From positions 39,306,014 to 39,370,013 of the forward strand of contig CP141144.1 of NCBI GenBank assembly GCA_035235625.1: 64,000 bases of DNA. Reading direction: 5' to 3'. Positions 2,314-56,662 of the stretch are shown one piece after another. Origin of the DNA: Saururus chinensis. Its lineage: Eukaryota; Streptophyta; Magnoliopsida; Piperales; Saururaceae. The notes below the pieces were generated by a model that was not told the origin of the DNA, did no database searches, and saw nothing but the letters and a program-made list of their open reading frames with translations. The number at the start of each line of letters is the position of its first letter. The first letter of the stretch is position 1. The position numbers were made by a program, and so were the translations under genes.

Positions 2314-2325
2314 GCTCCGATACCA
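2314..2325 (-). other. Primer-binding site of LTR element C1 (tRNA-iMet type)
   Basis: Read on the minus strand this is TGGTATCGGAGC, one mismatch from the plant initiator-Met primer site TGGTATCAGAGC. It starts two bases after the LTR end at 2328, the normal spacing. It fixes the orientation of LTR family C: transcription runs right to left here, and 2328-4166 is the 5' LTR. Confidence 0.8.
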
Positions 2326-2327
2326 TT

Positions 2328-18899: not shown

Positions 18900-20089
18900 A
18901 TGATCATGGGCAGGTTCTTGATTTTTGCTCTCATGGGTCTGATCATAGGCCATTCAAGTGCTTATGAATTCTATGCTGGTGGGAGAGATGGGTGGGTGCA
19001 GACCCCAAAAGAGGAATACAATCACTGGGCTGGGAGGATGAGATTCCAAGTGTCTGACACTATAGGTAAGCTAGTTTTTCAATTTTACTTGTTCTGATTT
19101 TGTGTAGATCATTTTTTTCCCAATCTGGTTCAGACCTTTGATTATTCATGTGAAATTGGATTTGTATAGTTTTCAAGTACAAGAAAGGGGAGGACTCTGT
19201 GCTGGTGGTGACCAAGGATGACTACAATGCATGCAACACCAAAAATCCAATACAGAAGTTTGATGATGGCAATTCTGTGTTCAAATTTGATAGGTCTGGT
19301 CCTTTCTTCTTCATCAGTGGGGCATCAGGTCACTGTGAGAAGGGGCAAAAGCTGATTGTGGTTGTATTGGCAGTGAGGCCCAAAGGTCAAGCTCCAGCTC
19401 CAAAGTCTTCTCCATCCCCTTCTAAATCTCCGCTGCCTTCTCCACCTTCCTCTTCTCCATCTCCATCTCCGCCTCCACCTTCTTCCTCTCCTCTTCCTTC
19501 TCCATCTGCCTCTCCAGCCCACTCTCCATCCACCTCCCCTGTGCCATCTCCCTCTACTCTTCCTTCTCCCTCTGCCTCCCCAGCACACTCTCCATCCACC
19601 TCCCCTGTGCCATCTCCCTCTACTCTTATTTCTCCCTCTGCCTCCCCAGCCAACTCTCCATCCACCTCCCCTGTGCCATCTCCCACAACTATTTCATCTC
19701 CTTCTGCCTCTCCAACCTTCTCTCCCTCTTCATCCCCTTCTCCACTTACTTCACCATCTGCTTCTCCAAGTTATCCTCCATCCACCGCTCCCATATTATC
19801 TCCCTCTCCTTCTTCCTCTCCTCTTCCATCCCCAACTACTTCTCCACCTGCATCAGCTCCTTCAAGTCAACCTCCAATAGGGTCCCCCTCATCCGAGGCA
19901 TCATCACCTCCTTCACCTCCAGGGGCCATCCCAGGATCACCTTCTGGGGTCCCAGCAGCTGGTTCCTCCGGCAATGAGACAACTCCCTCCACACCTCGTT
20001 CTTCAGCCCCATCTGCTACATCCTGGACTTCTGGGCTCTTCGTTGGATTCGTCACCCTGCTGTTGGCTTCCTTTGTGGGGTACTTCTAG
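18900..20089 (+). CDS. Early nodulin-like protein (phytocyanin-domain chimeric AGP, GPI-anchored)
   Basis: Two exons, 18900-19065 and 19170-20089, with a 104-bp GT-AG intron that splits the codon of Val56, a usual position in this family. The product is 361 residues. In order it has a signal peptide (1-21, ending SSA), a plastocyanin-like domain (22-126, with [23 protein letters not shown], Cys77 and Cys111 for the disulfide, and GHCEKGQKL), a Pro/Ser-rich arabinogalactan-type region (127-330), an N-glycosylation site in GNETT, and a hydrophobic C-terminal tail ([14 protein letters not shown]) typical of a GPI-anchor signal. Two copper-ligand positions are Ser (Ser65 for His, Ser105 for Cys), so copper binding is unlikely, as in other ENODLs. 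It should act at the outer face of the plasma membrane or cell wall. ATG 18900 is chosen because the upstream frame has no ATG; ATG 18906 is an alternative. The Pro/Ser part has three near-identical 63-66 bp units from 19496 to 19690. Confidence 0.95.
19066..19169 (+). other. ENODL intron
   Basis: It begins GTAAGCTAG and ends TTTGTATAG. Removing it joins DTI to VFKYKKGED in frame and restores the conserved phytocyanin core. Confidence 0.93.
19496..19690 (+). repeat. In-frame 66-bp tandem repeat in the ENODL AGP region
   Basis: Units at 19496-19561, 19562-19627 and 19628-19690 (the last one codon short) encode [12 protein letters not shown] followed by SPVPSPST with few changes. The repeats lengthen the hydroxyproline/O-glycan-bearing stalk. 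The near identity suggests recent expansion or contraction by slippage. Confidence 0.85.
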
Positions 20090-21651: not shown

Positions 21652-22620
21652 AATAAATATCTCTCTTATATATTATAGTTATAAATTAATATATTATTTT
21701 AAGGATCACAATGATTATTAACATATATATAAGTTTTATATTAACTCATATACACTTGTTATAGGCAACTTTAGATCTAAATCTCATAGGCTAGATATTA
21801 TGTGGTAGATCGGTGAAGATAATGGTGTCCAAAGGTCATGTGCCATAGAGTACATTATTCATATTCAGGACCATTTTAGCTATAGGTCTTATTTGATATA
21901 ATTCTTCAGGGGTTTTCAAAGTATGTTAAACATATAAAAATTTGAATATGTATAATATATTCAAAAAATATAAAAATTATTATTGAGAAGTGCGTTATAT
22001 ACATGTAGTCTATAAAAAAAGTTTGAGAAAATATAGTCATGTGGGATATCATGGTTGTCATTCCTTGCTCCCCTATTAACACCACCAAACTCTGAGCAGG
22101 AGCGTACACCTAGGAGAGCTAAGTTATCCTCGAGCTTGCCCTCCACCCATTCTTCTACTACTTCGACCACTACTTCCACCCCTCTTACTATCACTATGGA
22201 TAAACACAATCAATTAGTAGATGCACTTCTCAAAGCCCCGAGGGAGTATTATACTCCCAATGAGTTGAAAAGCCGTACAAGCACCGAAACGATTTCTTGG
22301 ACTTATGCACGATCTTTAAGTTCTCTAACTTGACCGATGAGCTATCAAACTTTGGTTTTTCCCTTTCACATTAAAAGATAAGGCTAACGGCTCCACCCAA
22401 TAGAACTAGACACAATCACAACATGGGCACATACAAGTGGCCCATGTTACAATCCCTTGGGTCAAAGATGTCGGGTAAAGTAGAAAATGATTGTCTATTT
22501 TTTTAAATCACATGTATTTGAGTTAGTTAAATATGATCCGAGGTGGAATGCTTCATGTTTACTATTGTGCTGATTTGTATGCTTTATACATATGTTTTTC
22601 AAAGCATAAGTTGTAAATAA

Positions 22621-22653
22621 GTGTGCGTGTGTGTGAGAGAGAGAGAGAGAGAA
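22621..22653. repeat. (GT)n(GA)n compound microsatellite
   Basis: About seven GT/GC units followed by about nine GA units. Confidence 0.85.
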
Positions 22654-23086
22654 GAAATTTTTATTATTTATTGTTTGTTTTATTGTGTGATGGCTTGGTG
22701 TAATTATAAAATTTCATGGTCTTGTCTTTGAACTTTTGTCGGAGGATTAGTGTACTAGTTCTATCGAAGGCTACCTGAGGTGTGATAGATATGTTCTCTT
22801 AGTTATGATGTGTAAATACTCATTAAGAACATTGGTGTCTAGCATAAACCACCATGTTACCAAATTATTTATTACAATTTTCATGTAATTCCTTATATTA
22901 TACCAGTGGTCCCCACTCTAGGACCCATGACTATCCACATTGTTGCACCAACTTCTTGGGTTGCCGATCTTCACTTGACATCTTAGATAGGCTTGAACCT
23001 TGTCACATTCATTCTAGCCTATTTTCCTAAGTGGGTTCACTTATTCATTTGTTGGACCCATGCAAAGCCCACTTATTTACCCTTAT

Positions 23087-23094
23087 TATAAATA
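23087..23094 (+). promoter_or_regulatory. TATA box of LTR E1
   Basis: TATAAATA, about 230 bp inside the LTR, followed 30-60 bp later by a plausible transcript start. Confidence 0.5.
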
Positions 23095-26000
23095 GCCACA
23101 TTGGCCATTCCTTTTATTTGGGCTGAGCTGAGACTTTTGAAGGGTTTAGGTGCTCTACCTCCTCTCAAGAAGGAAAAACTTCATCCAAGGTAAATCAATC
23201 AAGTTTCTTCAAGTTTTTATATATTTTACCTTCAATTCCATGTTCTTCTTCTCTTGAATGTGATTCTATGTCATCTCCTCTTCAAAGCCCATTCTTTTAC
23301 CTACGCTTTGAAAGCTTAGATCTTTGTTTCTTGCTTCTACTCTTATGATTACTGTTTTGTGCACAAGAGATTGATGGATTTGTTTTCTATTAGTGATTTT
23401 GAGACCATTTGGTGGAAATGTGTGGTTTTTGTTTATAAATAATGTAACATAATTTGTTGGGTAGGGATTTCTTGAACTTGAAAGAACATCAAAGGTTTTA
23501 CCAACTGATTTGAGGTAGGAGGTTTTTGTTTGATGATGTTTTCCTTACATAACACCAAGGTTGTGTGTGGATTCATGTTTATGAAATATGTGGATGTGAG
23601 CTTAAATCTTCTTCAATATGTGTTTTAATGATGTTTTGACATGAATATGTTTGAGTTATGTCAGATCTATCATGTCTAAGGATTAGATGATAGTTACTTG
23701 AAGTTTTACGAAGCATTAATGGGGATTTTGGATCGGTTTTGTTTTTCTGGGCTAACTAATCAATCTCCATGTCGGGCCAATCGATCAGTTACACTGCAAA
23801 ATGACTCTCTTTGATCTCTTTGTGCCCAATGCCCCTTAAGGTTGATTGATCAGCTAAGGAGAATTCAAATTTTATGCTTATTTTTAAGTCGGATTTGGAT
23901 GGTTTCATCATACTCTTGTCACAACCTGGATTTTAGAACCCTTTTTATATAAAGGACACATGATAAATCATGACATTTTTTTTCTTTAAATCAAATCAAA
24001 TCAATCGACTAAAATATCTAGGTCGTGATAACTGGGGTTCACAAATACGAATATCAAAACATTTGATAGTATTACATGTGTCAAAATTCGATAAACAACA
24101 TGTTAACCCTCTAAGTACAAGTCTGTCATCTATCAAAAAATAAATAACCAAGTAAAGTTAGCTCTCACGCCAGTAATTACAATTACTTATAAGATTACAG
24201 AAGTAAGAAGCTAGATCCCACTAGTGCAATGTCATCCTCAAATGCCCACCAACGTCTTGATCTCGCAACATCCCCATCTAAAAAACCTGCAAGCAAACAA
24301 GACAAAACAAAAATCAAACATATCCTCCCCTTAGAAGAACGTTTCAAAAGAACAAAAGTAAAATTTAATGTTTTACGGATTGGGCCAACATCACTCGATG
24401 TTAGTTGCCTATGTACTCATCAGACAACATCTCCAATGTTTCCAACAAGATTGGATCAGACGTAGTTCTACCTGAAACTACATTATTCTAAGAAGCATAG
24501 CATCACACATGCAATACTTAAGTATTTTAAACCAACCTACATTTTATCTAAGTCCTTTAATCATTCCATTTGTTCTAATTAAACAAGCAATATTAAACAA
24601 TGTTATTAATTATCTCTCAAACCATTGTTCGACAAATAATATCCCTGTCAATCCTAATGACAAACAGACTCATTAGATGTCAACCTAAGTGACAAATGAT
24701 AAATTTACCATAAACCACCCTCAAAGGTAAATCCATGACGAAACACCTTAGAATCCACTGGGAAGTACCATCACCCCTCCTAGCCCATGAAAGATTTGAC
24801 CGGAGTGGAAGGGCATGACCCACAACTGACCTGAACAGAAGTGGTGAGAAAAGCCAACCAAGTAGGATATTAGCTAATCCAAATGTATGTGCACTAAAAG
24901 ATCCTCAATAGATCTATGGTGAGCCCAACTCACGCATAGCTTCCTCCAATGGGGAGGTGCAACTACGTGATCAAATCAGCGGCTCCTCAATAGAGCTAGA
25001 ACTCAGGAAATTATTTGGAACCCTATCTTGCTCATCATTAAGCTAGGATTTCAAATTACTATCCCAAACCCTATTAGTCCCTTCTAGACTAGGGTTTGAA
25101 AGTCAAAACTGCCATCGATTTATTAACCAAGAAAAATTGTCAGGTCAAAAGCTTTGTTCACTCTATGAACTAGTCATAGATCCCTTTGAGGTATTTTAGT
25201 CCTTATATTGATTAGGTGTTCTCACCCAATCCAAAGCTATCCACCCCATTAATTAATCTTTCAATAATCTTATGCCAGTAATAAGTTATCTTCACAACAT
25301 CATTAGCAAATATCGAAACAATAAACAACAAAAACAATCAGAACAACACAAGTTCAAGCAGATCATAATATCAATAATTAAATTCAATAATGATATTAGA
25401 ATTGATCAAGTTCTCGTGCCTTAACCCTCCTTAGGTTAACTTATTATTTTTTTATGAAAATAGGTCATAATGCACCTAATGACATTAAAGTAATTATCTA
25501 ACATTGGATATGGTCCTCTCTGCTCTCAGGCAAGTCGTTAACCCACCAAAAGGTTTCAGTATCACATTGGCCCGTTAATAACATCCACATGAATGCGGGC
25601 TGGTCCACTAATAGGAGTATTTCTATCTTTTTATTCAGGGCGTCTCTAAACCCTAATTGGTCTAAAACTAATCACTAGGTTACACCTTGGCGTTATGCAC
25701 TCGAGGTAATTTTCTTGCTGTTTAACGAGGACATAAACCCCTTGAACCGACTCCGGTTCAATTAATTATTATACCTGAACCCTAAGGATAAAATAGTCAA
25801 TTCTCTATTTATTGGGATTTTTCCCTAACTTGTGGCTTGGTCCAAATTTGGAATACATATTAAAATCTCACTGATAATTTTCTTAATTTTTGAATCCACT
25901 CATAGGCTGCTGAAACGGAGTCCATAAGTATGGTCAATAATTATTATTCTATGCTTTAACTTACAAAGGTAAATTAGTCGTTTAAAAGCTTTTGGGATTT

Positions 26001-26982
26001 TCCCTAAGTCTGAAACTTGGTACAAACATTCGGCATCTGCTCAAGGTCATTTGTATTTTTTCTAAATTTTTATGACCATTTTATCCTACTAAACCGGACC
26101 TGGTTCAGTGGGTGTATTTTTTTTTAAAACAATTGAGCCGAACCAAACCGGGTAGGGTAAGCCGACCCAGTTTAAGGAGTGACGACCCGCATCGCAGGTC
26201 ATCTTCCTTGTGATCGGCCTCTGGCGGTGCCGCCCCCCTACCGCAGCGGAGGGGTGGGTGGCTCAGGTCTTTCAGACACGGCGGAACTCACTTCGTCAGT
26301 CCTGTTGCCGTCCAGTGGCTAGCCTGTCAAGGCCCAGATTTTTAAAAGCATTTTTAAATAGCACGAACAATAAGTAGCGAGAAATTTTTTTTCTTTACAT
26401 ACAAAACAAACCATTTGATTAAATATCCAGGTCATGATAACTAGGGTTCACAAATACGAATATCAAATCATACGATATTATTAACGTCTAAAAATTCATA
26501 AAGACCAGCTCATCCATCTAAGTACAAGTCCATCGTTCGTCTGAAAATAAATAATAAGTTGACTCACACGCTTAAGGTACACTTACATACCAGAGTTACA
26601 GAAACGCAGAAACCTCTTGTGCACGCCTGCCTTGGTCTCACTTTTCGTCGCCTGGAGAATCTGCAACAAAGCAAACCAAACAACAACCACAACCACAATG
26701 GAGCATCTCTGCCCACAGGAGAAGAGCTTCCAAAGGACAAAAGGTTTTATTAATATTTTTTGGATCGGGCCAACATCACCCGATGTTAGTTGCCTACGTA
26801 CTCATCAGACAACATCTCCAATATTTCCAACAAGATCGGATCCAAACGTAGTTCTGCCTAGAAACTACTCTATCCTAAGAAGCATAGCATCACACATGCA
26901 ATGCTTAGATATTTTCAACCTACATTTTAGTAAGTCCTTTAACCGTTCCACTTGTCTAATTAACAAGCAATATCAAACATTG

Positions 26983-29230
26983 TGTAACAACCCGACCCGA
27001 GCCGGGCCCACAAAATCACTAATAGGAAATTTTCTCTTTCCTTAAGCCAGGAATCATCGTCTGAGTGCGAGAGGTACAACGTTCGTCTACGCGCTACGGA
27101 GCTTTAAGGCTTCCTCGTACATAGACTTAGGTTGTACACACGACGAAGCTTCATAGTTCGTCGCGTGTAAAATAGAACAAAACATATTATTATAATGATT
27201 TGGATCGGGCCAACGTTGCCTTGCCGTTGGTTGCCTACGTACGTATTGGATATTATCCCAATACGATTGGATCCGAACGTAGTTCTGCCTAATGGCTACT
27301 ACATACAACAAACATCACAAAATCATACGTATAAAATACATATCTCCGAATATTTAATCAGAGTATACAAACACTCATCATATATCGGAGTCAAGCGGAA
27401 GTTAATAAATCAACGGAATAGTACATCTCTCTCTACCATAGAGCGGGATTAAAATCTTATACACATATCTCGTTTCATTACTGAATCGAGACTGAGCACA
27501 TCACCCGGCTCGCTCTATCACTGAGCCGAGACCGGACACACACATCACGTGTCTCACTCCACCCTAGAGTGAGACAACACACATCATGACATATAAGCAC
27601 GTAGCATGGCATATAGGCACATAGCATAGTATATCGGCACATAACATGGCATATAGGTACATAGCATAGTATATAGGCACATGGCATGACATATAGGCAC
27701 ATGGCATGGCATATAGGCACATAGCATGGCATATAGGCACATAGCATGGCATACACGCCGTTCTATAATAAAAATGGGAGATCAGAAAAGCTTACTGCCC
27801 TCATATCTCATATAGTAGCGGTAGACGGAGTTGCTCACACGAGCATCCTCTCCTTCAGATCCGAAGATATTAGATGGAGCTTCCTCTAGCCTCCATACAT
27901 TCATTGTCTTGTACCGAAAGACTACGTATAAATGTTCTCCTTGCCGGAGATTCTTCTCATTTTCTACGCCCGTGAGCGGCGGACAGAACCTCCCCTACTC
28001 TAGATTACTTCTCTTGATGTAGCTTGGCAACTTCAGACAGAATTCCGTCTTGCTTCGGGCCCATTTTTCTTGTTCGTTGCTCGAGGATCATGGGTGGAGC
28101 CTCTCCTTGTCTCGGGGCATTTCCTCCTTATATAGTTGCCAAATCAAAGAACGGACCTCTCCATCGCGTAGAACATACTTGATTTAGTCAAGAATGCCTC
28201 TTGGACCGACTAAATCGGAGTTGGGATGGCCAGAAACGGAGAAAACAAAGTTGGTCGGTACGGGTAGAACCTTTCCTTGTCTTGGGGCGTTTCCTCTTCA
28301 TACGATTGCCAATTCAGAAAACGGAACCCTCCACCATGTAGAACATACTTGATTTAGTCAAGAACGCCTCTTGGACCGACTAAATCGGAGTTGGGATGGC
28401 CAGAAACAGAGAAAACGAAGTTCGTCGGTACATGAAGATAACGGACAGGACCTCCTCTTGTCTTGGGACGTTTCCTCATCATACGGTCTTCAACTCGAAG
28501 AACGGACAACTTCATTGCATAGAGCATACTCGATTTAGTAGGAAACGGGTCTTAAACGGCCTTAATCGGCCTCAGAACGGTTAGAAACGGGGGTGGAGAA
28601 GTTCTGGTGAAGAATGAAGCGAAAATGGGGGTATAAATAGCCCCCGAGCCGCCGAAACCGCGGCGTCGCGCCGCCAGAAACCGTGGCGCCACAGTTTCGG
28701 GCGGCGGCACCCGCGGAAACGCGTGGCACGCCCGCGGCGCCCACCGTTTCGCGTCGCCCGCGTGCAGCGCAACGGGCGCGTGTACCACACGCAATGACCT
28801 CGCGTCACGGCCGCGCGTTATGCGCGCTGCGGTCGCGCATGCGTCGCGTGCGCACCACATATTTTTATTTTTTACTTTTTTTATTTTTAAATCAAATCTT
28901 CAAACGCACGTATCTCCCTACCTCGGATTCAGATTCACACGTTCTTAGTACCGTTGGACTCGTATTGATGAGCCCTTCGATACTAACCCACTTAAATAAG
29001 CAAATCACACTATTTCCAAGTGTGTCCCACCTATTATCTACGTTTCCCGAGGTCGTCACTTCCGGTCCCAACCTCCGTTTCGCGCATTCTTCAAATCGTT
29101 ATGCTCGATATGCCAAGATCTACCTAGCTATGGGTATTTTATCTAATGAATACCATTAACATTAATCTCAAATTACTAAATTACCCTTAACCCTCCCGGG
29201 TTAAGCGTAACCGAAAAACAAGTCGTTACA
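26983..29230 (-). mobile_element. Solo LTR C2 nested in B2
   Basis: A 2248-bp LTR, same family and strand as C1, longer mainly through a minisatellite and a GC-rich core. It is flanked by a perfect 5-bp target duplication CATTG (26978-26982 and 29231-29235). Removing it joins 'tatcaaacattg' to 'ttattaattatctc', exactly the uninterrupted arrangement in B3 near 46564. The CpG-rich core at 28650-28860 is much better preserved than in C1, which fits a younger insertion. Confidence 0.9.
27590..27751. repeat. 20-bp minisatellite in LTR C2
   Basis: About eight copies of 'ggcatataggcacatagcat' with A/G and C/T variants. The corresponding part of C1 (about 2920-2990) has only short, irregular relatives, so the array expanded after the copies separated. 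Open frames across it are repeat artefacts. Confidence 0.88.
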
Positions 29231-32200
29231 CATTGTTATTAATTATCTCACATCCCTTGTTCGATAATTAAAACTATCAAATCTGCAACTCGGAGATGAC
29301 TCGCCCCTCGAGAAATCCCCAAACAAAGTACTCCAGCCTTGGAGTGGACTGCTTAACAGCAGCTTGACCCAAATCCCTAGGGCTCTCAATAGCCTGCCAC
29401 AAATCCGGAGAAGAGGATCCCAACTATGCTCATGTACACAGATTGGCAAGAAACACAAGCCTTCCATGATGCTCATGTAACTCCGCTTTTCGTACGTACT
29501 AAATAGTCCTGGGAAGACCTGCGGGAGACCCGCGGTAAAGACCCTCTGGTCAATACCCAAACCGTCGTGGCGATGAAGATGCATATTGCAATCTCCACCT
29601 TCCCAATGCTGGGAGAAAATGTCTCATAAGACTTTACTAATATATCCATAGAAGCCTAAGGTCCTTATGACCATTGACTCCCCCGAACATCTGAAACTTA
29701 GACTAGATTATTTTCATCCAGTCAAGTAACCACTCAACTATGTGGGTCCTCTTCACCTTGTGAATCGGCCCACTAAATAGCTCATCCACTGAGCTATGAC
29801 TCAGAGAACATCCCAAAATCACTCTCGGTTCATTAACCAAGGTCAAAATCTATGCCAGGGACCTGTTCACTCCATGAACTGGTCCCAACCCTAAAGAGGG
29901 TATTTTAGTCCTTATCTTGATTATATGTTCTCCCCTCAAACCAACAGCAACCCATGTCTCTTGATTAATCTTCATTAATCTTATGTTACTGATATAAATC
30001 AATGCATCAATATCAAAAGCATGCATCAACATAAATAATCATGCAATCATACAAACGTATAAATAATAAATGGAGGCCCATTGCATTCATTTGCAAGGCC
30101 AGGGCTCAGAGAATTCAAGCCCGATATGTAAAATAACATATTCCACAAGCGCCGTATATAATGCCCTAGTGGATTTTTGCGCTGTGTTACAGACACGTGT
30201 AATATACTGCCCTAAACCCTGAGAATTAGGGTCCTCCATTGGTTTCCCATGACACTATGACTTGTCAAGGTCTTCGTGTCACCTACCAGTCACACCCCTT
30301 CCTTTTGAAGTCAATTATAGGGTACCTTAACTCTTGATTCACTAGGTCATCTGTTTAATCAGAAACATAACATATTGCCCCTAAGGGCATTAGGGTATTT
30401 TTACCACCTAAGGTATGATACCCTCCCTTAGGTCATTCTAATCATTTTACTACCCCTATATTGATTTAAGTCATTGACCACTCACAAGGCTCCACTCTCA
30501 GACCAACTCACGCTTCCATTCACACGAATGTTGGCGGGTCACACTTTAAGGGGTATTTCTGTTATTTGGTTTAAAGCCTTAATGACATCCAATAGGTCCA
30601 AAATTAGGCTCAAAGGAACTACTTGACTTCATGGACCATGTGTAATTTTCTTATGTGACGCGGTCGTGAACCCCTTGAACCGACCCAGGTTTTGACTAAC
30701 GGTTTACTATAAACCCTAAGGGCAAAAGGGTCAATTAACCACTCATTGGTATTTTTATTCACTAAGAGATTTGGCCTATATTTAGGTTACTCAGTAAACT
30801 CTCACTTAGAATTTTCCCAAGTTTTAAACCAATTCATCGGCCCCTGAACCGGAGCCCCGAAGTCAGGTAAATGGTTTTCACACGATGATTTAACTACCAG
30901 GGGTAGAAAGGCCATTTTAGAGACTTTGGGATTTTTCCCGGCCCTGAGACTTGGTCAAGACACTCATAACCCTCTCAAAGTCTACAGGTAATTTTTCTAA
31001 ATTTTTAGAACAAGTAAAGGCCCTTGAACCGGACCCGGTTCGATTCCCCCCTTTTCTTTCTTTTTCTTTTTTTTTAAAAACCCGACCCAGGCCGGGCCGG
31101 TTTGGGTTGACGACCCGCAACGCGAGTCATCTTCCCATGTCCTGCCAGAGGCGGAAACGCCTCTGGTGGCGCCGCCCCTAGCCACCACGGCCTGTCGGCG
31201 GGCTGGGGTCCATCGGATCGCCGCCATGCGGCGATCACAATGGACCTGGCCCCCGCCGTTGCCCGGTGGCCGGCTGGGCCAAAGTCGCCCTCTTTCTCTT
31301 TTTTTTTTAAACGAACTATTCGGCACGGCGGCCAGTCACCATGGCCGGGAAATGTCCCAGAACCGACCGGATCGCCGGGATCCGGCGATTCTAGAAGCCT
31401 AGACCCGCCGCCTGTCCCCAGCCGACCCTGCCCTGCTGAGAGCCGGAAACTGTTCCCAGGACCGGCACGCCCCTCTAGACATGGGTCCAGCCACCAGCGG
31501 TCTGCCAATGGTCAGCCGGCAACAGTCAGAAAACAAAAACAGTGCAAAGTGAACAGTGATTGCAAAAATCACTATTCACACCATTAACAAAATGGTTTAT
31601 ATTTTAATAATAAAATATCACTAATCTGGATTCAAAATCCTACTTCGAAGGCTGAGTTGTTGTTGATCCACTGTCGCCAATGCTTCGCAGGAGTCTCGCC
31701 GGAAAATTCCCTCATCTCCTTCTCCGTCCCAAAAGCTCCCCCAAATCGGACAAAAGACCCCCTCCAATTGTGCCCTAAGAAGGCCTTTTATAAGCATGAG
31801 ATTAGGGCTCCTAATCCCATGAGAAATTAGGCATCAAAAACCCAATTTCGGAACAGTAATTGATCGGGCCCGCATTGCAACTTCAATGGATAGTTCGCGC
31901 GTTCAAATCGGGTAAACGGATCCTGCACGATATATTCAACTTCAGACAATCGTTTCTCCCTCGTCTAGACTCTGATTCACACGTTCTTGGTGGCGTTTCG
32001 AAGTTCTTTTTGTCTACTTTCTATCCATATAGATTTCAGCCACCACTGCCAACTGATGATTAAGTTATTCCCACGGAAAGGTCAACGGGTCCTACACCTT
32101 AATTTCCACGTGTACGACTGCGGGAATTTAAAAAATTCCCGGACGTTACACAGCCAGCGGCCGGAAAGCCGCCTTTTTTATTTTTTATTTTTTATTTTTT

Positions 32201-33783
32201 CCGTGCGGCAGAGCTGCCTTTGCGGCCAGGGCCACCGCGGCCCAGGCTAGCGCTACCGGGGCCATCATGGCCTAGATCGGCGTGGCCTCAGCCAGCGCGA
32301 CCAGTGACTATTTTTTAATTTATTTATTTTTGTTTCCCTTTTGGTGACCAAGGTTTGGATTGGGAGAAAAATATTCAACCACTCAGTGAAGAAGGACCGG
32401 TCGACCGACCAATGACCGTTCACTTGAATCAACAGAAGCTTCAATGCAAATTTACTATTCTCTATAATTACATAATGCTAATCTCTACAGTGCACTTACA
32501 AAATTACAGAACAGTTGCAAAAATTTCTGTTTATTTTAATTACACCACTACATTCAATTTTTATAATCATATAATCTACATCTTAATTATTCAATAAATA
32601 GTCATTAATCTCGACTCAAAACTAATATAACGAACTTACCTTAATTGCTAATTTGCCGTCAATCCACTGTTGCTGGATCCTTGCCAGAGCCTCGCCGGAG
32701 CTTCACCGTTCACCCCATTCTCTCCTCCCATCGAGCAAAAGACCCCTTAATTGTGCCCTCAAAAGCCTTTTTATAAGCATGGAGATTAGGGTTCTAGAAG
32801 TTGGGCCAATCCCCCTCAATTAGGCCACTTAATTGGGCCTCTAAAAATTAAGTTTGGAACTCTAATTAATCGGGCCCGCAAAACAACTTAGACGACCAAA
32901 TTACACGTTAAAATCGGCTAAATGGGCCCTATACAATATGTTCAACTTCAAACAATCATATTTCCCTCATCCAAACTTTGATTAATGCATTCTTGGTGGC
33001 ATTTTGAAGCTTTTTCTGTCTACTTTCTAATCATATATGTTTCAGCTACAAATTCTATCTAGGGGGGAAGTTATTATACTAAAAATTTTAATAGGTCAAG
33101 TACCCTATTTTCTACATATTTAATTTTGGAAACCTAAAAAAATTCAGGATATTACACTTTACATGTAATTAGTAAAGTATTATCATGCTGAAGTATGAAT
33201 GTTGGCACACATATAATGTTTTTCATGTATGAACCATATTCCACATACTTTAGCTCATTTATGAATATGATCACTTATGTTTACACGCACTTATGCATAC
33301 ATGACCTCATTATCGATGTATAGACCATGTCTATTGCATGATAGGGTTGTTTATTAGTATGACTACACTTACATGACCATGTTCCCCATGAGTGAACCAT
33401 GTCTCACGCATGATATAATTATTTATTAGCATGAATGCTTATGCTTGCATGTATTTAACATTACTCACGTATGACTCAAGAAAATGGATTGTTAAACCAT
33501 GTTTAACTGTGACTAGTCATGACATTTTACATAGTTTTCCTTATTAGTCATATTGGGGATTTGAATTAATCGGTTTTTCTTCCGAAAGGGAGGGGTTTTA
33601 TGTCCAAAAGGGCAAGGTTTTACATCCAAAATGGTTGGTTCCTCCCTAGGTTGAGAAGAGCTAAATGCTATAGTGAGAAAACTAAATGAGACTTTTGGAG
33701 TGGGCTATAGGCCGGTTTGCCCGTGTGCACTAGCTAACCAAGGGCATTTCCGATTTTTAGGATTTGTCAAATGCTTTTGGTAT

Positions 33784-35213
33784 TGATTGTTTATAATTAA
33801 ACCCTTTGCAAGTGTACAAGGTAATTGTACTTGGATAAGTATTTAAGGGTTGTCGAATCTCAGGGATGGATAAATTATCACTAAATCTAAAGAGGAATTT
33901 GCTGATTAAAAACTAGAAAGAACTTAAACTTAAATTAAGCAAAAGAAAGGAATCAACTAGTTTAAAAGCAAGAGATTAATATGATGGGAATTACTTAGGA
34001 AATCAAATCCACTATAGAACCATAATAATTTCTTAACTTTTAATCTAAATCTAGTGTGAATATGAATAAGTATTATCAGCTACAAGCTAGAATTACTTTA
34101 GAAAAAATCATTAATTAAATTCCATGGCATGAACTATCTTCGACAATAGCACGAATCATCTACACTAAACTAGCTGTAGGCATGACCCGTCTAATCTTAG
34201 TATAACTCATCCAAGTCATTAATTATCTGAACATTAAAACTATTGTATGACCATCTCATCTAAATCACAGAAATTAGAATCGATGTAAATATCAAAACCA
34301 TATCAATCTATCATCTACAAGATAATAAATCAACATAGACTTCAATAAACATTAAAAGTTCTTCTATTAAAAAGGAAATCCATATGATACAATTGTCATC
34401 ATTCACAATTGAGATCTAAATTAAAAAGAAAAGAAACTGAAACTTATCTATAGCTTCATCAACTCCTAAGTAAAAGAAAAGTCTAGTTTTCTATTGTAGA
34501 AGAAAGCACTTGAATCTCCATTAAAAGCTTTAAGTTCTCTTCCATCTTCTTCTTTCTTTTTCTCTTCATAAAATCTACTGAAATCATCTGGTTTCAAGCC
34601 AAATATGTCTTTTTATAGGCATAAGATCCGTAGGAAGAAGTCCAATATGAAAAGGATTGAAAATTTGATAAAACTAGGAAATTGCACGTTATGTTGTTCG
34701 AACGCCCTGCATGCCCGTTCGAACGCTTGAATTGTATTTTCTTCAAAATCACGTTATCCTGATTGAATGGTAACTGACCTTGTTCGAACGGCTACAATGT
34801 TTCTACAATCTGGACAGTTTTTCTGGACAGTCCATATTCTGTTCATTAAGCTTTTCTTCATGTCCATATTAATTTCCAACTTGTTTATAACTCCAAAAGT
34901 TGTCCAAATCACTTTAAAGCATGTCAAGACTATTTTTAATTATTTCAAACATCGTCCAAGTACTTAAATAAGCGCACTTTACCTATAAAATATAAAATAT
35001 CATCCTTTAGACATGTACAATATAATTAAAATCCCAACTTTGTTCAAATACATATCTAAACTACTAATAACTATAAAATTATTAATAATTAAACTAAAAT
35101 ACTAATTTCTATCTTAATCTAAATAAACTATAACTAACTCTTAATTAACCTAATCTATACTAGCAAATAAGGTAAAAAGGCATAGAAAATAGATATATAT
35201 TTCATACTTATCA
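33784..35213 (-). mobile_element. Solo LTR F nested in LTR E1
   Basis: A 1430-bp element with TG...CA ends (TGATTG to TTATCA) and a perfect 5-bp target duplication GGTAT (33779-33783 and 35214-35218). Minus orientation is a guess from the TGATAAG start on that strand. No internal coding region is present and the superfamily is not assigned. The motif 'gttcgaacg' occurs three times at about 34697-34790. Confidence 0.75.
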
Positions 35214-36038
35214 GGTATTTCTGACTTAAGAATATTGGGTAAGTAGGTATTAGGTATCTTCGAGTACCGAAAGTTCTTTATCGATGATTTATGGATTATT
35301 GATGCTTATTTACATAGGCTATGTATATGGATTATGATGCTCATTTACACAAGTTCTATGTAACAATTATGATATTTATTTACCAAGGTTGTGCGTAGAC
35401 CATGACACTTAATTATGCATGTTGTGTATAAACTATGACACTTGAATGCACGGGTTGTGTATTTGAATTATGATACATAATTGAGGTATTTGTACATGTT
35501 TTACTTATGGATTATGATGCATGATTGAGATATTGCATAAGTTTTATGTGCATGGGATTTGACATGGTCTTATGATCATAGCACCGGTATTATTGCATAA
35601 GGTTTATGTTATGCATCTTAAGGATTATATTTTTGGTATTAATGTGAACTCTATGCTTTCAATCCCTTACTGAGCTAAGCTCACCCTAGTTGTCTTGTCC
35701 CCCTCTAGGATCATCTGTGTAGTTGTGCCATGTAAGTGCTTAGGATGAATTGTTTTGTGAGCATGAAGGAGATTAGATATACACAAAGTGGGGATATGAG
35801 ATAGATTTTAGATGGTTTTTTATGTAACTTTATGACATAACTATGACACTTGACTATGTTGTGAGATAGCCTTATTTTGATGGCATAGACATGCTTATTT
35901 TGATGGTAATTTCTTTTGCACAAAGTAAGTGTTGTGTACTTCGATCTAGATCGGGTTTAGGTTAGAACTCATTTTATCACACCCATGTCATTCTTTCTTG
36001 GTTTGGTTTGGGTCATGGGGGTATGGCGGGGGGTGACA

Positions 36039-36828
36039 GTATGTGAGTTATTTTATTGGGTGTAAGCTCATGGGTAGTTTTGTTTTGTATGGACTTTCTA
36101 TTGAGTGTATTTGTATACACAAATGCATTCGAGTTTACAGATGCATGTTAATGGGAGCTTGAAAGCATGCTGAATAGATATTTGTCTTGAGTGACAAGGG
36201 TAGAAGCAATAAAGATTTTGCTAGTTGAAGTGGACTCTATTTAGTAGTTTGTTTACTTTGATAATTGTAATAACTATGCCATGTGATGATTCATTTGGCT
36301 AGACTTATGTTACTCATAGTTCTATAGTTTATTTAATTGGAGAATAATTTGTTAGTAATTGATTTATTATCTTCAAGTGGGTCTCACTATATTTTGAAAG
36401 TAGCCTGAAGGACCCTCTGGTCGGGGTTGTGGACATTTATCTATAAAAAGAAAGGGGAAGAATAAATTAGAAAGAAAATATGAAAACAATTAAGAATGAA
36501 ATAAAATAATAAGATGAAAAAAAATTAAATACCTCAAATTTGTGTGGGTACTCGAAAATTGCTCATTGGAGTTTGGAGTGTAGAGAATTGGATGATGAAG
36601 ATTAATTTGTAGAGAGCTTGAAGAATTTGAAATCTTGATTTTAGAAGAACTTGGAGATTTCTTGAAGAATTTGTAGAGAGCTTGAATCTTCTTCAAGAAC
36701 ATGAGAGATTGACTTGAGTGAAAAATCCCCACCCCCTCCCTTTTATTTATAAGGGAGAAACTTCTTATTAAATGACAACAACATTCTTCATAATTATAAA
36801 AAAATAGCTTTCTTGGTGGGTATATAGG
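36039..36828. other. No gene recognised
   Basis: A low-complexity stretch near 36540-36700 repeats 'tagagagcttgaa' and 'agaatttg' words. No gene is supported. Confidence 0.5.
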
Positions 36829-38209
36829 TAGGGGTGTTCACGGACATCCAATGCCCATTTGACAGTCTCTGTTCGCATCCATGGGTACATAGGGTGGACA
36901 AATGTTTTGGTCCAAAGTGGGCACAGACACGAATCGCGGATTATTAAATCGTTCCATCCTTATAGGTGTCTGTGGATCCGAACAAACTATTATTTGTATT
37001 CGCTAATGTCCATGTCCACCACTTAATTTGAATTTATTGTTTACACTTTACACATATTCATCACATTACCCTAACTCTAATCAGTCTCATGACTGCGATG
37101 ACCAGCGCCTTGCTACTCTGCTTCTCATAAGGGCAATTCCCATTCCTCTGTTTTGCAAAGTCTACACCTTTGAACTTCCCTCTGCACCTTTGTTGCCTGC
37201 TAAGCATAAAACCATAGTCCTCATCGCCTGCCGCCAAGTTGGATCACAACCGCCTTCAAAGAGAAGGTATTTCGCCCTTGTTGGCCACCACAGAGTTGTA
37301 GTCACCCACCGCATCCTCAACTTCGCCCTATTAATTGTTTTGACCACGTGTTTGAAGGTCTTCAAGTGAAGGATCGCGGCCTCCTACCAAAAATAGGTAT
37401 TGCCATATTGGGCCTTGCCACAGACTTGTGGTTGCCCACCACATCCACTACTTTAGTACATTCTTTTTTACTACGAGTATGCAATTTTGTCTATCCTCAT
37501 ATGCTGCTTGTTTCTGTACTGCTGAGTTCTGCTACCATAGAGGAGGTACCCTATAGCCACTTGTTTAATTCTTTCTATTGGTGTAAGGTGAACATTTTAC
37601 TTGAATAATTGTTTATTTCCATCTCTTGGAGGAGCGGCGTCACTGCAATGCCTCTTGTGTCTAGCCATGAGACATATATGTTATTTCTCTTATTTCTTTT
37701 TTTGGTGTAGATGGTGTGACCTAATAAAAAAAATTGTTGCTTGTCGTTTGCATGAACTTCATGGCATGAGCTTTGTAATATCCAGGAAGCTGTTGGTTTT
37801 CTGGTATATTACTTTCTTTCTTAATGTATAATAAGTGTCTATAATATGCTTTTATGATATTTTGTTGTTGGTATGCCAATTATCCAGATGATCCATTAGA
37901 AAAGGAGAAAATCCTTGGAGGAGATAAGGCAAGAACTTTGCCCGGTATGACTTGCTAATCTCATTAAATTATCTAACTAATCTTTTCTAGATATGCATCG
38001 ATCTTCTTTTTCTTTGAGAGCCATAAGTGTTCTACTCCATATCTTCTTGAACAACTAGCCAGTTTATGTGGTCAAGAATATGATGTTGAAGTTCCTGTAT
38101 GGATACAAAATGCTTGATAATTTGTAGTTTCTCATGCCAACAACTTTAAATGTGATTTCAAAAAATGTGGTTTTGTTTGTCTCACAGTTCATGTCTTGGA
38201 CATTTGACA

Positions 38210-41200
38210 TGTAATGTCCCTGATTTTTTTATGATTTTTTGTGATTTTCCTACTATTTTTTTGTCATATTTGGCATAAAAATGTGACACTTCCGGTGTAT
38301 TTATATTTGCATATTTGACCTTAGTATTATACTTGTAGAGTCAGGTGTGGGGCTTAGTCGCAGGCCATAGGCCTCGACGCATGCTTTCGGCTCAAAGTTT
38401 GGAGGTACAATGCATAAATAGGAGGTTAGTGCATGATGAGGACATAAAAGGAAAAAAAGAGTATAAAGTATGGAGGGATCGACACATTCTAGAATCTCCA
38501 AGACGTCCATAAAGTTTTGACGTCCAGTAAGAATGAGTGAAACCTAAGAGAGTTTTCAGTCGCTCCACCGTGCTTCCTCTGTTGTGGGATTCTACTAGTT
38601 CTTTTCGGGATCCATTTCGCCTTACCACCACGAGTCTATTGGTACCTGCTAGGACCATTGCCATGTCCTCCTTTCTCCTCCACGAGGTACCAGCCTTTTC
38701 CTCTATTTTTCTCACCTTGTAAATTTATTTTTGGGCCGCTAGAAGGCTATTTTGTCACTGTTTGCTGCCTCCCTCCATTGGACTTATCTTCGTCCAGCAA
38801 CCAAGAATCCATAGGCCCTAGCCAAGGCTACCACCATGCTTTCCTTGATCCTTTGCGAGATGCCAATACATTGGGTGCATCTTGGGTCGTTGCCATCGGT
38901 GAGCTATAGGCCATTTGGCCATCATGGGCTCTGCCCAGCTCGGCGATAGCGAGGGCCAACCCCACTTGGCCTGATTACACCTCTACTCGAAATGGGCCAC
39001 TTGCTCCTTACCTTATCCCGTGAGAGATGCACAATTGCCAGCACCAAATGTGTTGGTTGTGATGGCAATCAGCGATGTTGCCATTTTGTTCGGCCACCAC
39101 ATCTTGGTCCTCACTTAGTTGCCCTTTTGCAGACCTTGGGCTGCCACTGTCTGACCCACCTTCCCCTAGAGTGACACTTTTTGGCCACGTGTACATATGG
39201 ATGTGCATGCATTTCAGGGTTTAGGCATCACATTTGTGCCACATCACCATCGGCTGGCTCCTCCACCGACTGGATTGACCATCAGAGCCCTCCTATGTCT
39301 GTCCTCCACCCTTGAGCATCACCCCATGCCCTCCGCCTTTATGTGGGCCCTTGTAGACACTAAATTGACGTCCTTGGGTATTGTTCATGACCGATTTCGA
39401 TATCTTGCAACCGACTGACTACTTCTCAACCACCTGCTGACCTTCAGTGAGTACACCAAGACTTTTGGTTGCTTTTGTGATTTCTGTTGGCACGACCTTT
39501 CTCCCAACTGCCCTTAGTGTGCCACCATGGATTGCAGATTTTGTCGAGTTAATTTGTGTTACCCAGTTTGGCCATGAGTACTTCCGGCGCTTCCTAAACC
39601 CTCGGGACAACAACTCTCTCAACTTGGCAATGCGTTTGGTCACCAACTCCGCCACCAACACCACCACTATCTTGTGCTCGCCATCAAACATCATGGATTA
39701 CGAGGTAGGGGAGCTTTGACCTTGTAATTTCATGATAGCATACTTTGAATGTGTAGCCACATGCTAGGATTGTATGATTCAATGCTTTGGATGAGAAATC
39801 ATGATTTGTTAGCATGATGTAAGAGGATAAATTATGCCATGTTGAAATGCATATGACATGCATGTGAGCTCTAAGTATGGTTGATGTATGTATGTGCTAG
39901 TGATGGTTAGCGAGTATGTTGATAAGCTATGTATGTGGAATATGTGTGTGCTAGTGATGGCTAGCGAGTATATCTATGTATGTGGATTGTGTGTGTGTTA
40001 GTTATGGCAAGCAAGTATGTTGGTAAGCTATGTATGGAATTGTGTGTACGAAAGTATGTGTGATGGACATACATATGTATGATGCAATGGATATGTGTAC
40101 GTGTGTGTGGGCGGAATTATGAGTGATAGACGGTAAGAGGTGATAGAGGGTTTGGTATGGACTTGAATGTGGATGTGTAAGCATATGACGAACGGGCGAG
40201 GATTGGAATGGATCAGTATGGGTTGGAGTGTATGTGGAGAATTGTCAGAAAGTAAGAGTATTGCATAATTGTACAAGCATAATGTACAAATTATGAGGTG
40301 AAAAGTAAGCAAAATAAGTGAGGTATAAGTAAAAGGGTGATAATTGGGTTTGACTCCGAGGAACTCAATTTGATAACTTCCAAGTAAGATGTGTTAGCCA
40401 TAAGGTGGATGGCGGAGATTGTATGAATATGTAAGGATTTGATGTACGGTGAGTTGTGATCATGAGATAGATGGGTGAAGTGAAGTCTGCTGCCCTGACG
40501 AACTAGGATTTCGGATTAGGCTCAGCTTCAATTTGATCAGTAGACCACTATATGTTTGAGAGATTTATGGCATAATTGTACCCGCATAAATTACTTAATT
40601 CAAACTTGAATTATAAGAAAAGTTAATGATAGCATTGTGAGTTTGAGACCTAAGGGTATCAATAAATTAAGTTATGTGTTTGAGCTAGCCGATGATGAGT
40701 CAACTGAGCATTTCTCATGTCTTACCATGGTGTTTATCCTACGCGATGTTGTCTGTGTGCTGTATTAAAGCCTAGATGTTTAATGCTTTGTTGAGAGCGA
40801 TGTATGTTTTCGATTTGGTCTGTGTGCCATATTAAGCCCAGACGTTTGATGCTCTATTGAGAGCGATATATGATTCTGCCAAAGAGTGGCACTCTATGAT
40901 TTCTACCCAAGAGTGACACTTTATGATTCTACCCAAGAGTAACATTGTATGATTTTTGCCCAAGAGTGACACTAACACTATAAGACCCCTAAAATGTGGG
41001 TAATTTTATGGCCCTAATGTGTGGGAATTTGTGTTTGTGTGCTCAGGTAAGTAGTATCATGGAACCACCTTACCTGTTTGATCCTGTGCCCTATGAGCAT
41101 TGGTGTGCCTTATATTTGGAAATGTCCATGACATCTAGTCACTCCCCGGAGGTTAAGGTGATGCCCAAGTGGCATTCCTTTCCATTTCAATGTTGGAGCT

Positions 41201-42297
41201 TATTAGTTGTAATGAGCTTTAGTGGTTGATAGTATGTGTACTACTATATGAGTGAGTATATATGTTTCTGAGTAAGTGTAAGTATCTGAGTAAGATTGTA
41301 AGAGTATGATTATGAGTAAGAATATAAGTGTAAGTTTCTGAGCAAGACTATAAGCATAAAGTTTCTGAGCAAGACTATAAGCGTATATTTTTTAGCAAGA
41401 CTGTAAGCGTAAATTTCTGAATAAAACTGTAAGCATATGTTTCTAAGCAAGACTGTAAGTGTAAGGTTGTACAAGTAAGGCCGTATGAGTAAGATTGTAT
41501 GAGTTAGGTCATACGAGTAAGGTCGTACAAGCATGTGTAAGTTGTATAGGTAAGTGTACGATTGTACAAATAAGTTTGTAAGACTTTGATTAAGAGTGTA
41601 TGTGTAAGATTGGTTTGATGGTATGCATTTGACATAATTGTATGCGTATGTGCCTGATTATTATATGCCTTTCTGCTTCATGTTTGAGTTGCATGAACAC
41701 ATCTATGTATGGACTTACAGAGTTCACTGTTTAGAACTCCCCTACTGGGTATATTCCTACTGAGTATAAAAATACTCATTTACCCTATATTTTTAGCCGC
41801 AATGTTTTGGAGGCTTTTGCTGGTTTGTGACGGAGAGCTCCTTGAGATGGATGCTTATTTCTGTGGTGGATTGATTCCCTTTAACTCATGTATATCCTTG
41901 ATTCACTGCAAGTATTATTTGTGCCATGATCTAATGTATTGGATGAGATGAGAATGAAAGTGTTTATGTTTTCTGGACTTGTAATTTGGATTAGACTGTG
42001 GAATGTTATAGGACTTGTACTCAGGGATTCCTAAGAGATATTTGTATTTAAAGTATATGATCATATATATTTATTTCGTACATTTATTTTCAAGTAGCGC
42101 TTGAAGATGTTTAGTTTGGACGTTCGATGTTTGAATGAGTAAAAATTTATATGGGAAAAATTGATGTGTAATGTTTTAAATTATAAAACTGCTTTCACAA
42201 GTTTTGCATTTGCCATTTTTCTTGATTTACAACCGTTATATTGCAAAAAATTTCTGTAAATTTTAAAGAAAATGTGATGAAAAATCTTGGGGTTACA
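38210..42297 (+). mobile_element. Solo LTR A1 (4.1 kb) inside the hAT element
   Basis: It runs from TGTAATGTCCCTG to TTGGGGTTACA and is the inverse of the LTR A copies at 47056 and 48927. Flanks 'tgaca' (38205-38209) and 'cgaca' (42298-42302) are a 5-bp target duplication with one change. It is about 0.7 kb shorter than the other A copies, mostly in the GC-rich 5' third. Plus orientation is by analogy with LTR C (TGTAATACCC at the start). Open frames at 38301-39719 and 40996-41951 are inside the LTR. Confidence 0.85.
40730..41590. repeat. Minisatellites in LTR A1
   Basis: Two arrays: about four copies of a ~28-bp unit around 'acccaagagtgacac' (40870-40980), and many ~25-30 bp units around 'tgagcaagactataagcgta' (41260-41580). 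Counterparts in A2 and A3 are in inverse orientation (47700-47970 and 48240-48380; 49550-49850 and 50050-50265). They also share duplicated 'gctctcaacagagc' hairpins. Confidence 0.75.
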
Positions 42298-42913
42298 CGA
42301 CAACCTTGTGCAAGCATTGTTTTTAAACTATCAAAGTGTCAATTGAATTCATCATACACTCATACTTCATAGACATGTTGGCTAATACCCTCTTTACCAC
42401 TCCATCTTCTTTAAGAGAGCCACCTGCACAAAAAGATCCTGTCGTCGGCTCTTTCTAGTCATAATACTTCTTTGCATTAGGCTTGTTCCAACCTTCACCA
42501 TTATTGAAGATCACATTAATTTGTAGATAAAAGCTGATTTAGAGATGTTAGAAATATTAGAACATGTTAGCATTTAGTTAATTTTTTAAAAAAATAAGAC
42601 TACAGTTGAAGTATTGCATGAATAATATTTAGTCTCTTAGGTAAGCCTACTTGTTACTTGGTGGAAGATTGGGAGGAAGAGCCTAACAATAAACAGGAGG
42701 AAAAAGCCTCTATGCATTATTTTATGACAAATTCAATTGATATGTATATGTATATGATTTCTATTTTGTTAGGATTAAATGTCATTTTCTATATTGTTGG
42801 GATTAAATTTTATCTTAATCTGAACAATTCTTTTTCATGAAGATAATTATTTTATTTATTAGGTTAATTTCCATCCTATATATAAATGTTATATTGTTTC
42901 TTGTTTAGTGACC
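42298..42913. other. hAT internal sequence upstream of the transposase
   Basis: AT-rich, with no domain recognised. It continues the sequence interrupted by A1 at 38209. Confidence 0.35.
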
Positions 42914-44946
42914 ATGTTTGACTATAAAGGGAAAATGGTCATTGACAATGAGGAGCAAAATGCTCCAACTACTACTCAAGCTTTAGTTAGTTAAAAATGT
43001 GGTTGTGTCCATTGATGAAGCACCGTCTAAAAATGGTTTAGAATGAAATAATGTCTCTTCAAAAAGGAGTAAAACACAACCTAATGAATCAAAACCAACA
43101 AGGAGACTCACTTCTAAATGATGGGAATATTTTAAGAAGGATGTGGATAAAAATAGGAAATAAATTGCTAAATCCAATTATTATTCTAAGCATGTAAAAG
43201 GAGATACTAAAAGTCAAGGTACCAACCCAATGAAAAGGCACTTGGAGAAAAGGGGAAGTTTCAAATTAAAGGGCAACAAAAATTAGTATTGGGGGAGAAA
43301 AAAATGATGGGAGTTGTTCAATTGAGTCATTCACTTTTAGCCAAGAAAGAAGTAGAAGACAACTTTGTGAGGCCATTATCTTACATGAATATCCTTTTAA
43401 TATTGTTAATCATGTTGCCTTGAAGAAATGGGTTAGACATTTACAACTGCAATTTAAGTTTGTGAGTTATACAACCATTAGAAGGGAGTTTTCAAAAATT
43501 TATGATAGTGAGAAGAAGTAGACATTTGATGAATTGGAGAAGCTTGAGATTCGAATTAGTATAACAAGTGACATGTGGACATCTATTCAAAATATTCTCT
43601 ATATTGTTTTGACACTTCATTACATTGATGAGAAGTGGAGGTTACAAAGTCAAGTGCTCAACTTTTGTAAGGTTGAATCACATCATACTAGTGAATGCAT
43701 TGCTAAAATTGGAACATTGAGAGGAAACTATTTAGTGTTGCTTTGGACAATTGTAGTGCAAATGATGTTGCAGCTCTTGAGTTGAAACATGATCTATTGT
43801 ATAAGGGATTTCTTGTATTTAATGGTGAGTTTTTTCATATGTATTGCACCACACATATTCTCAACATGATTGTTCAGTATGGCTTGGAAATGATTAGAGA
43901 ATTTGTGGAAAATATAAGCGAGTGAGAGGTATGTGAAATCTTCTCCTCAAAGATCACAAAATATCTACAAGCATGCTAAACAACTTTAGGTGCCAAAAAA
44001 GAAATTGGTTCTCAATGTTCCTAATAGATGAAATTCAACATATATGATGCTTGATGTTGCTCTAGAGTTTAAGGATGTGTTTGCTCATATGGCATCGATA
44101 GTTCTCGATATACTTTCGAGCCATTAGTACAAGAGTGGGAAGGAAATGTGAGGATGGTTAATGATTGCTTAAAAGTGTTTTAAGGATTAACTGATATTTT
44201 CTCCAACACCAAATATCCCATTTCAAACATGTTTTTTGGTAGAATATATGAGTTGAATATCTTATTGAATAATTGGAGCATTGATTGTAATCGATTCATT
44301 TCATCTATAGCGATTAAGATGGTTGTAAAATTTGATAAATATTGGAATGATATTCATATGGTGTTGGCAATAGCTTCCATTTTAAATCCTAGATTGAAAA
44401 TGAAAGTGGTTGAGTGTTATTTTACTATGATCTATGGTGAACAACTTGGTCAAATGAAACTTAATGAAGTTCATGATGCTTTGAGAAAACTTTTTGATGA
44501 ATATGTTTCATGGGTACCGGGGTCAAGTGAGTTTGATGGCATAATTGCAAGTAGTTAAACTTCTATTAGTAGTGAGAGGTCTTCATTCTCTCTAGTGGTG
44601 GATGCGGTGCTGCCTTTTGTAGTATGTTTAATAAGTATATGGAAGATAGCTCATCAAGCCAAATATCAAAAGTTAAATATGAGTTGTATTTGGAAGAGCC
44701 CATTCTCAAAGATCCTTTTGGTAATACATTTAATATTTTGGCTTAGTGAAAAAAGTTTGCTACAAAATATCCCATCTTATAAAAAATGGCACAAGATATC
44801 TTAGCTATTCCTTTGTCTACTGTGGCATCAGAATTGACATTTAGTACGGGTGGAAGAATTATTAGCCAATCAAGGAGTTGAATGAGCACAAAGATGAAGC
44901 AAAAGTTAATATATGCATGAAGTTGGTTGAAGGCTAAGTTTGAAGG
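42914..44946 (+). pseudogene. hAT-family transposase pseudogene
   Basis: A likely ATG at 42914 is followed by a decayed zf-BED region (about 43107-43255, with NPMKRHLEK but a missing zinc Cys: SNYYSKH), then EYPFNIVNHVALKKWVR, ITSDMWTS (43556-43580, around a catalytic Asp position of hAT transposases), LTLHYIDEKW, DNCSANDVAALELKHDLL, GEFFHMYCTTHILNMIVQ, LAIASILNPRLKMK, and the C-terminal hAT dimerisation domain (about 44679-44900, with YLEEPILKDPFGNTFNILA and PLSTVASE). Frames change several times and stops interrupt it, for example after the DSEKK segment and at ILA-stop before the WKKF motif. It cannot be functional. It gives the orientation of the host hAT element. Confidence 0.9.
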
Positions 44947-45885: not shown

Positions 45886-46984
45886 TGTCACTGCCCGAAT
45901 TTTTAAAACCCTTTTTATAATAAAGGACACACGATAAATCACAATAAAATTTTTTCTTTCATAAACACAAAACAAATCATCTGATTAAATATCTAGGTCG
46001 TGATAACTGGGGTTCACAAATACGAATAACAAAATATATGATATTATTATACATGTCAAATTCCGTAAATAGCAAGTTAACCCTCTAAGTACAAGTATGT
46101 CATCTTTCCAAAAATAAATAACTAAGTAAAGTTGGCTCTTACGCTAGTAATTACAATTACTTACACGATTGCAAAAGTAAGAAACTAGATCCTACTAATG
46201 CAACATTGTCCTCAAATGCCCACCAGCGTCCCGATCTCGCAACATCCCCATATAAAGAACCTGTCAGCAAACAATACCAAACATGCAACAAAACATCTCC
46301 TCCCCTTGGAGGAGCATTCAAAAGAACAAAAATATTATTTAATATTTTTTGGATCGGGTCAACATCACCGATGTTAGTTACCTACGTACTCATCAGACAA
46401 CATCTCCAATGTTTCCAATAAGATCGGATCCAGACGTAGTTCTGCCTAATGTTACACTATACTAAGAAGTATCGCATCACGCATGCAATGTTTAAGTATT
46501 TTCAAGCAACCTACATTTTATGCAAGTCCTTTAATCATTCCACTTGTTCTAATTAAACAAGTAATATCAAACAATGTTATTAATTATCTCTTGAACCATT
46601 ATTCGATAATTAATATCCCCGTCAAGTCCCAATGACAGATAGACTCATCATATGTCGACCTAAGTGGATTCCAGGGGCCTGGTGGATTTTAGGGGTAAAA
46701 AAGTCATTCTATAGTCTTTGGGATTTTTCCCAAGTCTGAAACTTGTTAAGAATACCCCCACGCTTGTCAAGATCCAATAGGAATTTTCCAAAAAAAATTT
46801 GACATTTTTATCCCCTAAACCGGACCCGGTTCGACCCTTCTTTTCTTTTTTTTTAAAATCGGACCGGTTTGGTTCGGGCCGATGACCCACAACTTGGGTC
46901 GTCTTCCCCACATTCGGCCTGAGGCAGAAATGCCTCTAGCGGCACTGCCCCTGGCCGCCATGGCAAGGTGGTGGCCTGGGCTCC
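45886..46984 (-). mobile_element. LTR B3, truncated
   Basis: It opens TGTCACTGCCCG and aligns with the first 1.1 kb (plus-strand reading) of B1 and B2, including the shared module at 46351-46448, then breaks off near 'cctgggctcc' and abuts unrelated DNA belonging to element D. It lacks the uninterrupted other half. It is a useful control: its 46555-46600 stretch shows the empty C2 target. Confidence 0.7.
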
Positions 46985-56647: not shown

Positions 56648-56662
56648 TTCACGATCTTCGCC

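Follow-up and report, generated by a model that had tools for sequence, protein, structure and literature searches.

Architecture of the locus

A 64,000-nt stretch of contig CP141144.1 from the plant Saururus chinensis (assembly GCA_035235625.1; positions 39,306,014-39,370,013, forward strand), hereafter the window, carries between its positions 22855 and 36038 what is very likely a stack of solo long terminal repeats (LTRs) derived from long-LTR retrotransposons, the source elements probably being of the Ty3/gypsy type. The LTR-like sequences are assigned here to families B, C, E, F and G, and all comparisons between copies were made within the window. The innermost member, C2 (26983-29230, minus strand, 2248 bp), has the ends TGTAACAACC...GTCGTTACA and the relatives C1 and C3, and is flanked by the target duplication CATTG (26978-26982 and 29231-29235). 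It divides B2 (26325-32150, minus strand, 3573 bp without C2, ends TGTCAAGGCC...GGACGTTACA) into a left part at 26325-26982, which has 74% identity to B1 and B3, and a right part at 29236-32150, the 5' side on its own strand. B2 is flanked in turn by TAGCC (26320-26324) and CAGCC (32151-32155), which agree at four of five positions, and separates the two parts of B1 (23917-33156, minus strand, 3409 bp without B2). The left part of B1, its own-strand 3' side, runs from 23917 to 26324 and has from its first base 84% identity to B3 and 74% to B2, while the right part, the 5' side (32156-33156), aligns with the end of B2 to the last base.

Around B1 lies the putative outermost LTR, E1 (22855-36038, strand inferred to be plus, 2509 bp without its inserts). 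Its left part (22855-23916) starts with TGTTACC, its middle part (33157-33783) adjoins both B1 and F and resembles the other parts in composition, and its right part (35219-36038) ends with GGGGGTGACA. The 1430-bp insertion F (33784-35213), which has TG...CA ends and is read as a solo LTR, stands between the middle and right parts and is flanked by GGTAT at 33779-33783 and 35214-35218.

The inner levels and the F insertion

It is practically certain that C2 lies inside B2 and B2 inside B1. The flanks of C2, F and B2 were read again and gave the duplications reported in the first-pass annotation, those of C2 and F being perfect; from local base composition a match at all five positions is expected by chance with p=0.0012, and a match at at least four of five with p=0.019. 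When C2 was excised in silico and its flanks joined (70+70 bp, with one copy of the duplication kept), the product gave an unbroken alignment to both B1 and B3, which are therefore empty sites for C2. An empty-site allele had been claimed in B3 alone; the empty site is indeed present there, and in B1 too, but these are copies of the same family and not alleles. For B2 in B1, the ends of B1 are set by homology, on the left with B2 and B3 and on the right with B2, the two LTRs can be aligned from first base to last, and the B1 parts on either side of B2 match B2 in the correct order. B1 and B2 also have in common the TATA box CATGCTTATAAAA, found at own-strand nt 359 in B2 (CATGCTTATAAAAGGC) and nt 382 in B1 (CATGCTTATAAAAAGGC). 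Two observations count against the proposed stack. Sequence joined across the B2 site resembles the corresponding region of B2 itself only weakly (7/500 shuffles as high), and B1 has no target duplication (ACTCT/CTTTA) despite its TG...CA ends.

There is little doubt that F is an insertion that duplicated 5 bp of its target, given its TG...CA ends and perfect GGTAT repeats. No convincing relative of F was found within the window, the best matches being weak and AT-rich.

The putative outermost level

That E1 is one LTR split by B1 is likely, on the strength of its end motifs, promoter-like TATA box and composition. The ends are LTR-like in a single orientation, and a TATA-like sequence, TATAAATAG, occurs at nt 233. 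Furthermore, positions 35443-35855 match 4280-4694 of a second copy, E2 (4167-4982), over 392 columns at 68% identity, a score reached in 0/200 shuffles. This match supports part of the right third of E1, and a looser alignment extends to the 3' ends of both copies.

Several results weigh against an intact outer LTR. E1 lacks a target duplication (CACCA/GTATG) despite its TG...CA ends; the left part (22855-23916) matched nothing else in the window at E <0.07, and the best match of its left third to positions 1-2327 was equalled in 72/200 shuffles. The last 140 bp of the E1-E2 match, taken alone, are not clearly above chance (31/500 shuffles as high), and no second E copy in the window spans either the 23916/33157 or the 33783/35219 junction. 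Since the left part is unmatched and the E2 match is partial, the placement of B1 in E1 is not demonstrable by a continuous second copy. Thus, of the four-level nest that had been proposed, the placement of C2 in B2 and of B2 in B1 stands, as does F as an insertion of its own, whereas B1 in E1 is only probable.

The alternative that survives best, although we consider it unlikely, is that B1, E1 or both arose by recombination between different elements of one family, so that the E sequences flanking B1 would represent two E insertions and the outermost level would be illusory. B1 and E1 are both without a duplication, and solo LTRs of this kind have been ascribed to inter-element recombination: in the accessible part of a survey of pear, 2,896 solo LTRs with a duplication and 552 without were counted among 7,247 elements, one mismatch in the duplication being allowed (PMC4668562). 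In addition, no other copy in the window joins the left part of E1 to its middle and right parts. However, loss of a 5-bp duplication through decay in an old insertion is a simple alternative, and the TATA box of E1 and the LTR-like ends on its two sides share one orientation. The left, middle and right parts are also alike in GC content (0.354, 0.357 and 0.349) and in TG/CA excess (1.26, 1.35 and 1.32), the latter being lower, at 1.14, in each 1-kb flank.

The same TATA box and composition speak against the less probable idea, which we would give only a small chance, that E1 is no LTR, that its TG/CA ends are fortuitous and that B1 and F inserted into an unrelated old repeat or intergenic DNA. 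Such a view would accommodate the missing duplication, the left part without a second copy and the weakness of the E1-E2 match at its end, but the region 35443-35855 matches E2 far above chance, so that at least the right part of E1 belongs to a repeat family.

The motif TTACA-N-CATGTAA occurs at 4162, 22872 and 33152 (three occurrences against 0.18 expected), two of them straddling the right-hand boundaries of C1 and of B1, and the third lying at the start of E1. The idea that B1 entered E1, and C1 entered E2, at nearly the same site sequence was considered and not upheld: the E1-E2 alignment around these sites is too poor for their homology to be claimed.

Solo LTRs and their proposed formation

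The nest members are read as solo LTRs because neither a retroelement domain nor a tRNA-Met-type primer site was found inside the nest. Within 22855-36038 there are 20 stop-to-stop open reading frames (ORFs) at least 80 codons long; all were scanned against Pfam, and none had a retroelement domain. Four of the 20 gave matches below the cut-off (E 0.047 to 0.61), but the families matched were not those of retroelements. Primer sites with at most two mismatches numbered five in the window and none inside the nest, and since shuffled patterns gave 0 to 5 sites the count of five is uninformative. The earlier claim that all members are solo LTRs fits these results, a search for internal retroelement sequence between the LTR ends having found none by either approach. 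On the other side, the domain search is a weak one. As a rough positive control, 10 of the other 99 ORFs of the window were scanned against Pfam; they included a hAT-like transposase ORF (44184-44555; E 4e-30) and a Tf2-1-like SH3 match (E 3.9e-7), but a gag remnant fell below the cut-off (E 0.051), indicating that decayed domains score poorly.

Two relatives of C2 lie near the left edge of the window. At 2314-4166 lies C1, whose inner end is two bases from a tRNA-Met-type primer site (TGGTATCGGAGC, minus strand, 2314-2325). C1 is thus probably a 5' LTR whose element continues beyond the left edge of the window; with such a primer-site-like sequence adjacent to C1, family C is apparently not represented in the window by solo LTRs alone. 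C3 (5115-6954, plus strand, flanked by CGATA/TGATA) is another solo LTR. That B, C and F are instead short, complete non-autonomous elements is very improbable, for although no two-LTR full-length relative of B or F is visible in the window, the primer site of C1 is placed as in a 5' LTR, B, C and F contain no terminal direct repeats according to the repeat searches, and B and C have an LTR-internal block in common.

In the proposed history of the solo-LTR stack, full copies would have integrated, each duplicating 5 bp of target, as is seen for C2, F and B2, and recombination between the two LTRs would then have removed one LTR together with the entire interior, leaving the end product now seen. 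Containment shows that B1 was the first of the three inner layers to insert, with B2 following into B1 and C2 into B2. E1 would predate B1, and F would have entered E1 some time after E1 itself was in place. That B1 and E1 are without duplications may reflect decay, or these copies may be the product of recombination between different elements.

CpG decay as a relative clock

As every layer of the nest is solo, there is no LTR pair from which to obtain a direct date, and decay of CpG (cytosine followed by guanine) was used as a substitute. The observed/expected CpG ratio climbs inward, from 0.32 in E1 through 0.66 in B1 and 0.77 in B2 to 1.27 in C2, and the order is kept in bins below 48% GC (0.31, 0.52, 0.67 and 1.17, respectively). 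In the B1/B2 alignment, B1 alone has lost 37 CpGs and B2 alone 14 (p=0.0018). C2 is apparently the youngest member of the nest. The ratio of F, 0.60, gives it no place in the age order.

The window also holds a second nest, in which the solo-LTR-like G1 (47056-56605, ACTAT/ACTAT) contains a second member of its family, G2 (48927-53688, ATCCC/ATTCC). Aligned CpG losses there were 87 in the outer G1 and 45 in the inner G2 (p=0.0003). A third copy, G3 (38209-42298, left end inferred), is related to G1 and G2 but inverted and more decayed, at a Kimura two-parameter (K80) distance of about 0.29.

The agreement between CpG decay and nesting has to be set against a number of confounding points. The K80 distances, all of them between paralogues, are 0.231 for B1-B3, 0.290 for B2-B3, 0.402 for B1-B2, 0.329 for C1-C2 and 0.200 for G1-G2; with 0.402 between them against 0.231 for B1-B3, B1 and B2 are separate subfamilies, and because of this their CpG difference may be partly inherited. 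Across layers the comparison is confounded by family differences, and in the accessible part of a study of Del retrotransposons the LTR families differ in their CpG islands (PMC4029996). The low CpG of E1 is common to its right flank (0.41). Polarising the losses with the three copies B1, B2 and B3 was dropped on account of small counts, six being found in B1 only, two in B2 only and five in B3 only, too few to decide. CHG ratios (H being A, C or T) are out of order, at 0.49 in C2, 0.77 in B2, 0.74 in B1 and 0.29 in E1, and CHG depletion was rejected as a second clock as it does not track nesting order. With these caveats, the age order predicted from containment agrees with CpG decay. The relative clock suggested in the first-pass annotation is borne out to that extent, although it had been assigned to three LTR families and there are four by the present naming (E, B, C and F).

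Absolute dating was also attempted. The substitution rate is taken as 1.3e-8 per site per year, which on the B1-B3 distance would make B1 less than about 9 million years old; this date was judged unreliable because of methylation-driven C-to-T change. Our literature search found no paper combining CpG decay with nested solo LTRs.

A block common to B and C

Six B and C copies are found in the window (B1, B2, B3, C1, C2 and C3), and a block of some 160 nt is common to them all, located on the 3' side when each LTR is read in its own orientation. It lies on the minus strand at 24346-24506 in B1, 26731-26893 in B2 and 27171-27323 in C2, the other copies being at 46320-46480, 2527-2684 and 6654-6816. 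RNAalifold predicts for it a multi-branched fold of 28 pairs. In statistics drawn from these six related sequences, 94.0% of pairing cells are able to pair, compared with 90.9% in shuffled alignments (1/500 as high) and no more than 40.7% when the alignment is slid, and covariation scores 0.229, compared with 0.184 in shuffles (6/500 as high). Pairs altered on both sides are not clearly above chance (3 against 1.9 shuffled; 120/500), and further pair types number 12 against 12.6 (464/500). The predicted conservation of an RNA fold is thus suggestive only. A covariance model of the block (R1) recovered only its six source copies, Rfam at gathering thresholds gave no match within 22000-37000, a range that includes the B1, B2 and C2 blocks, and our literature search found no description of such a block. 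We put forward only tentatively the possibility that the block, common to two LTR families that otherwise differ, specifies a folded RNA whose 28 pairs are conserved because selection acts on the retrotransposon transcript.

Other features of the window

A plastocyanin-like (phytocyanin) ORF is found at 19154-20086, and Ty3-type remnants are also present in the window. To the right of G1, positions 56635-57748 hold a broken gag-like frame, whose Retrotrans_gag match is weak and below the cut-off, together with a sequence resembling a primer site. No tRNA genes were found in the window.

Relation to known nests and LTR families

Nests, and the relative clocks read from them, are already known and are ordinary in plant genomes. 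In the accessible parts of the relevant studies, nests of the maize adh1 type are likewise built of insertions within insertions, with solo LTRs, an order taken from containment and age bounds on solo LTRs (PMC2672092; PMC7251063); REANNOTATE orders nests and bounds the ages of solo LTRs (PMC2672092), and nested pairs are reported in fifteen plants (PMC7251063). The present nest differs in that all of its layers are solo LTRs. Among known families the closest likeness is to the Del/Tekay Ty3/gypsy chromoviruses, which, as far as the accessible portions of two studies go, have long LTRs (1.2-4.2 kb among the rows seen), CpG-rich stretches and many solo LTRs (PMC4029996; PMC4668562), the solo-to-intact ratio of Tekay in pear being 6.93 (PMC4668562). 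The commonest att sequence given there for the U3 end of Del, TGTAACACCC (PMC4029996), is similar but not identical to the own-strand starts of B2 (TGTAACGTCC) and C3 (TGTAATACCC). Unlike Del/Tekay, families B, C, E and F are known here from LTR-like sequence alone, with no coding part in the window.

The nest has no visible function and is of value for the order of insertion that it records. It provides a clean, small case for comparing CpG decay with the order of containment inside a single nest; the second nest points in the same direction, and the understanding of plant genome evolution is left unchanged. The main addition, and the part most worth following, is the block common to the B and C LTRs which, if it does encode a conserved folded RNA, could mark this LTR lineage in plants.

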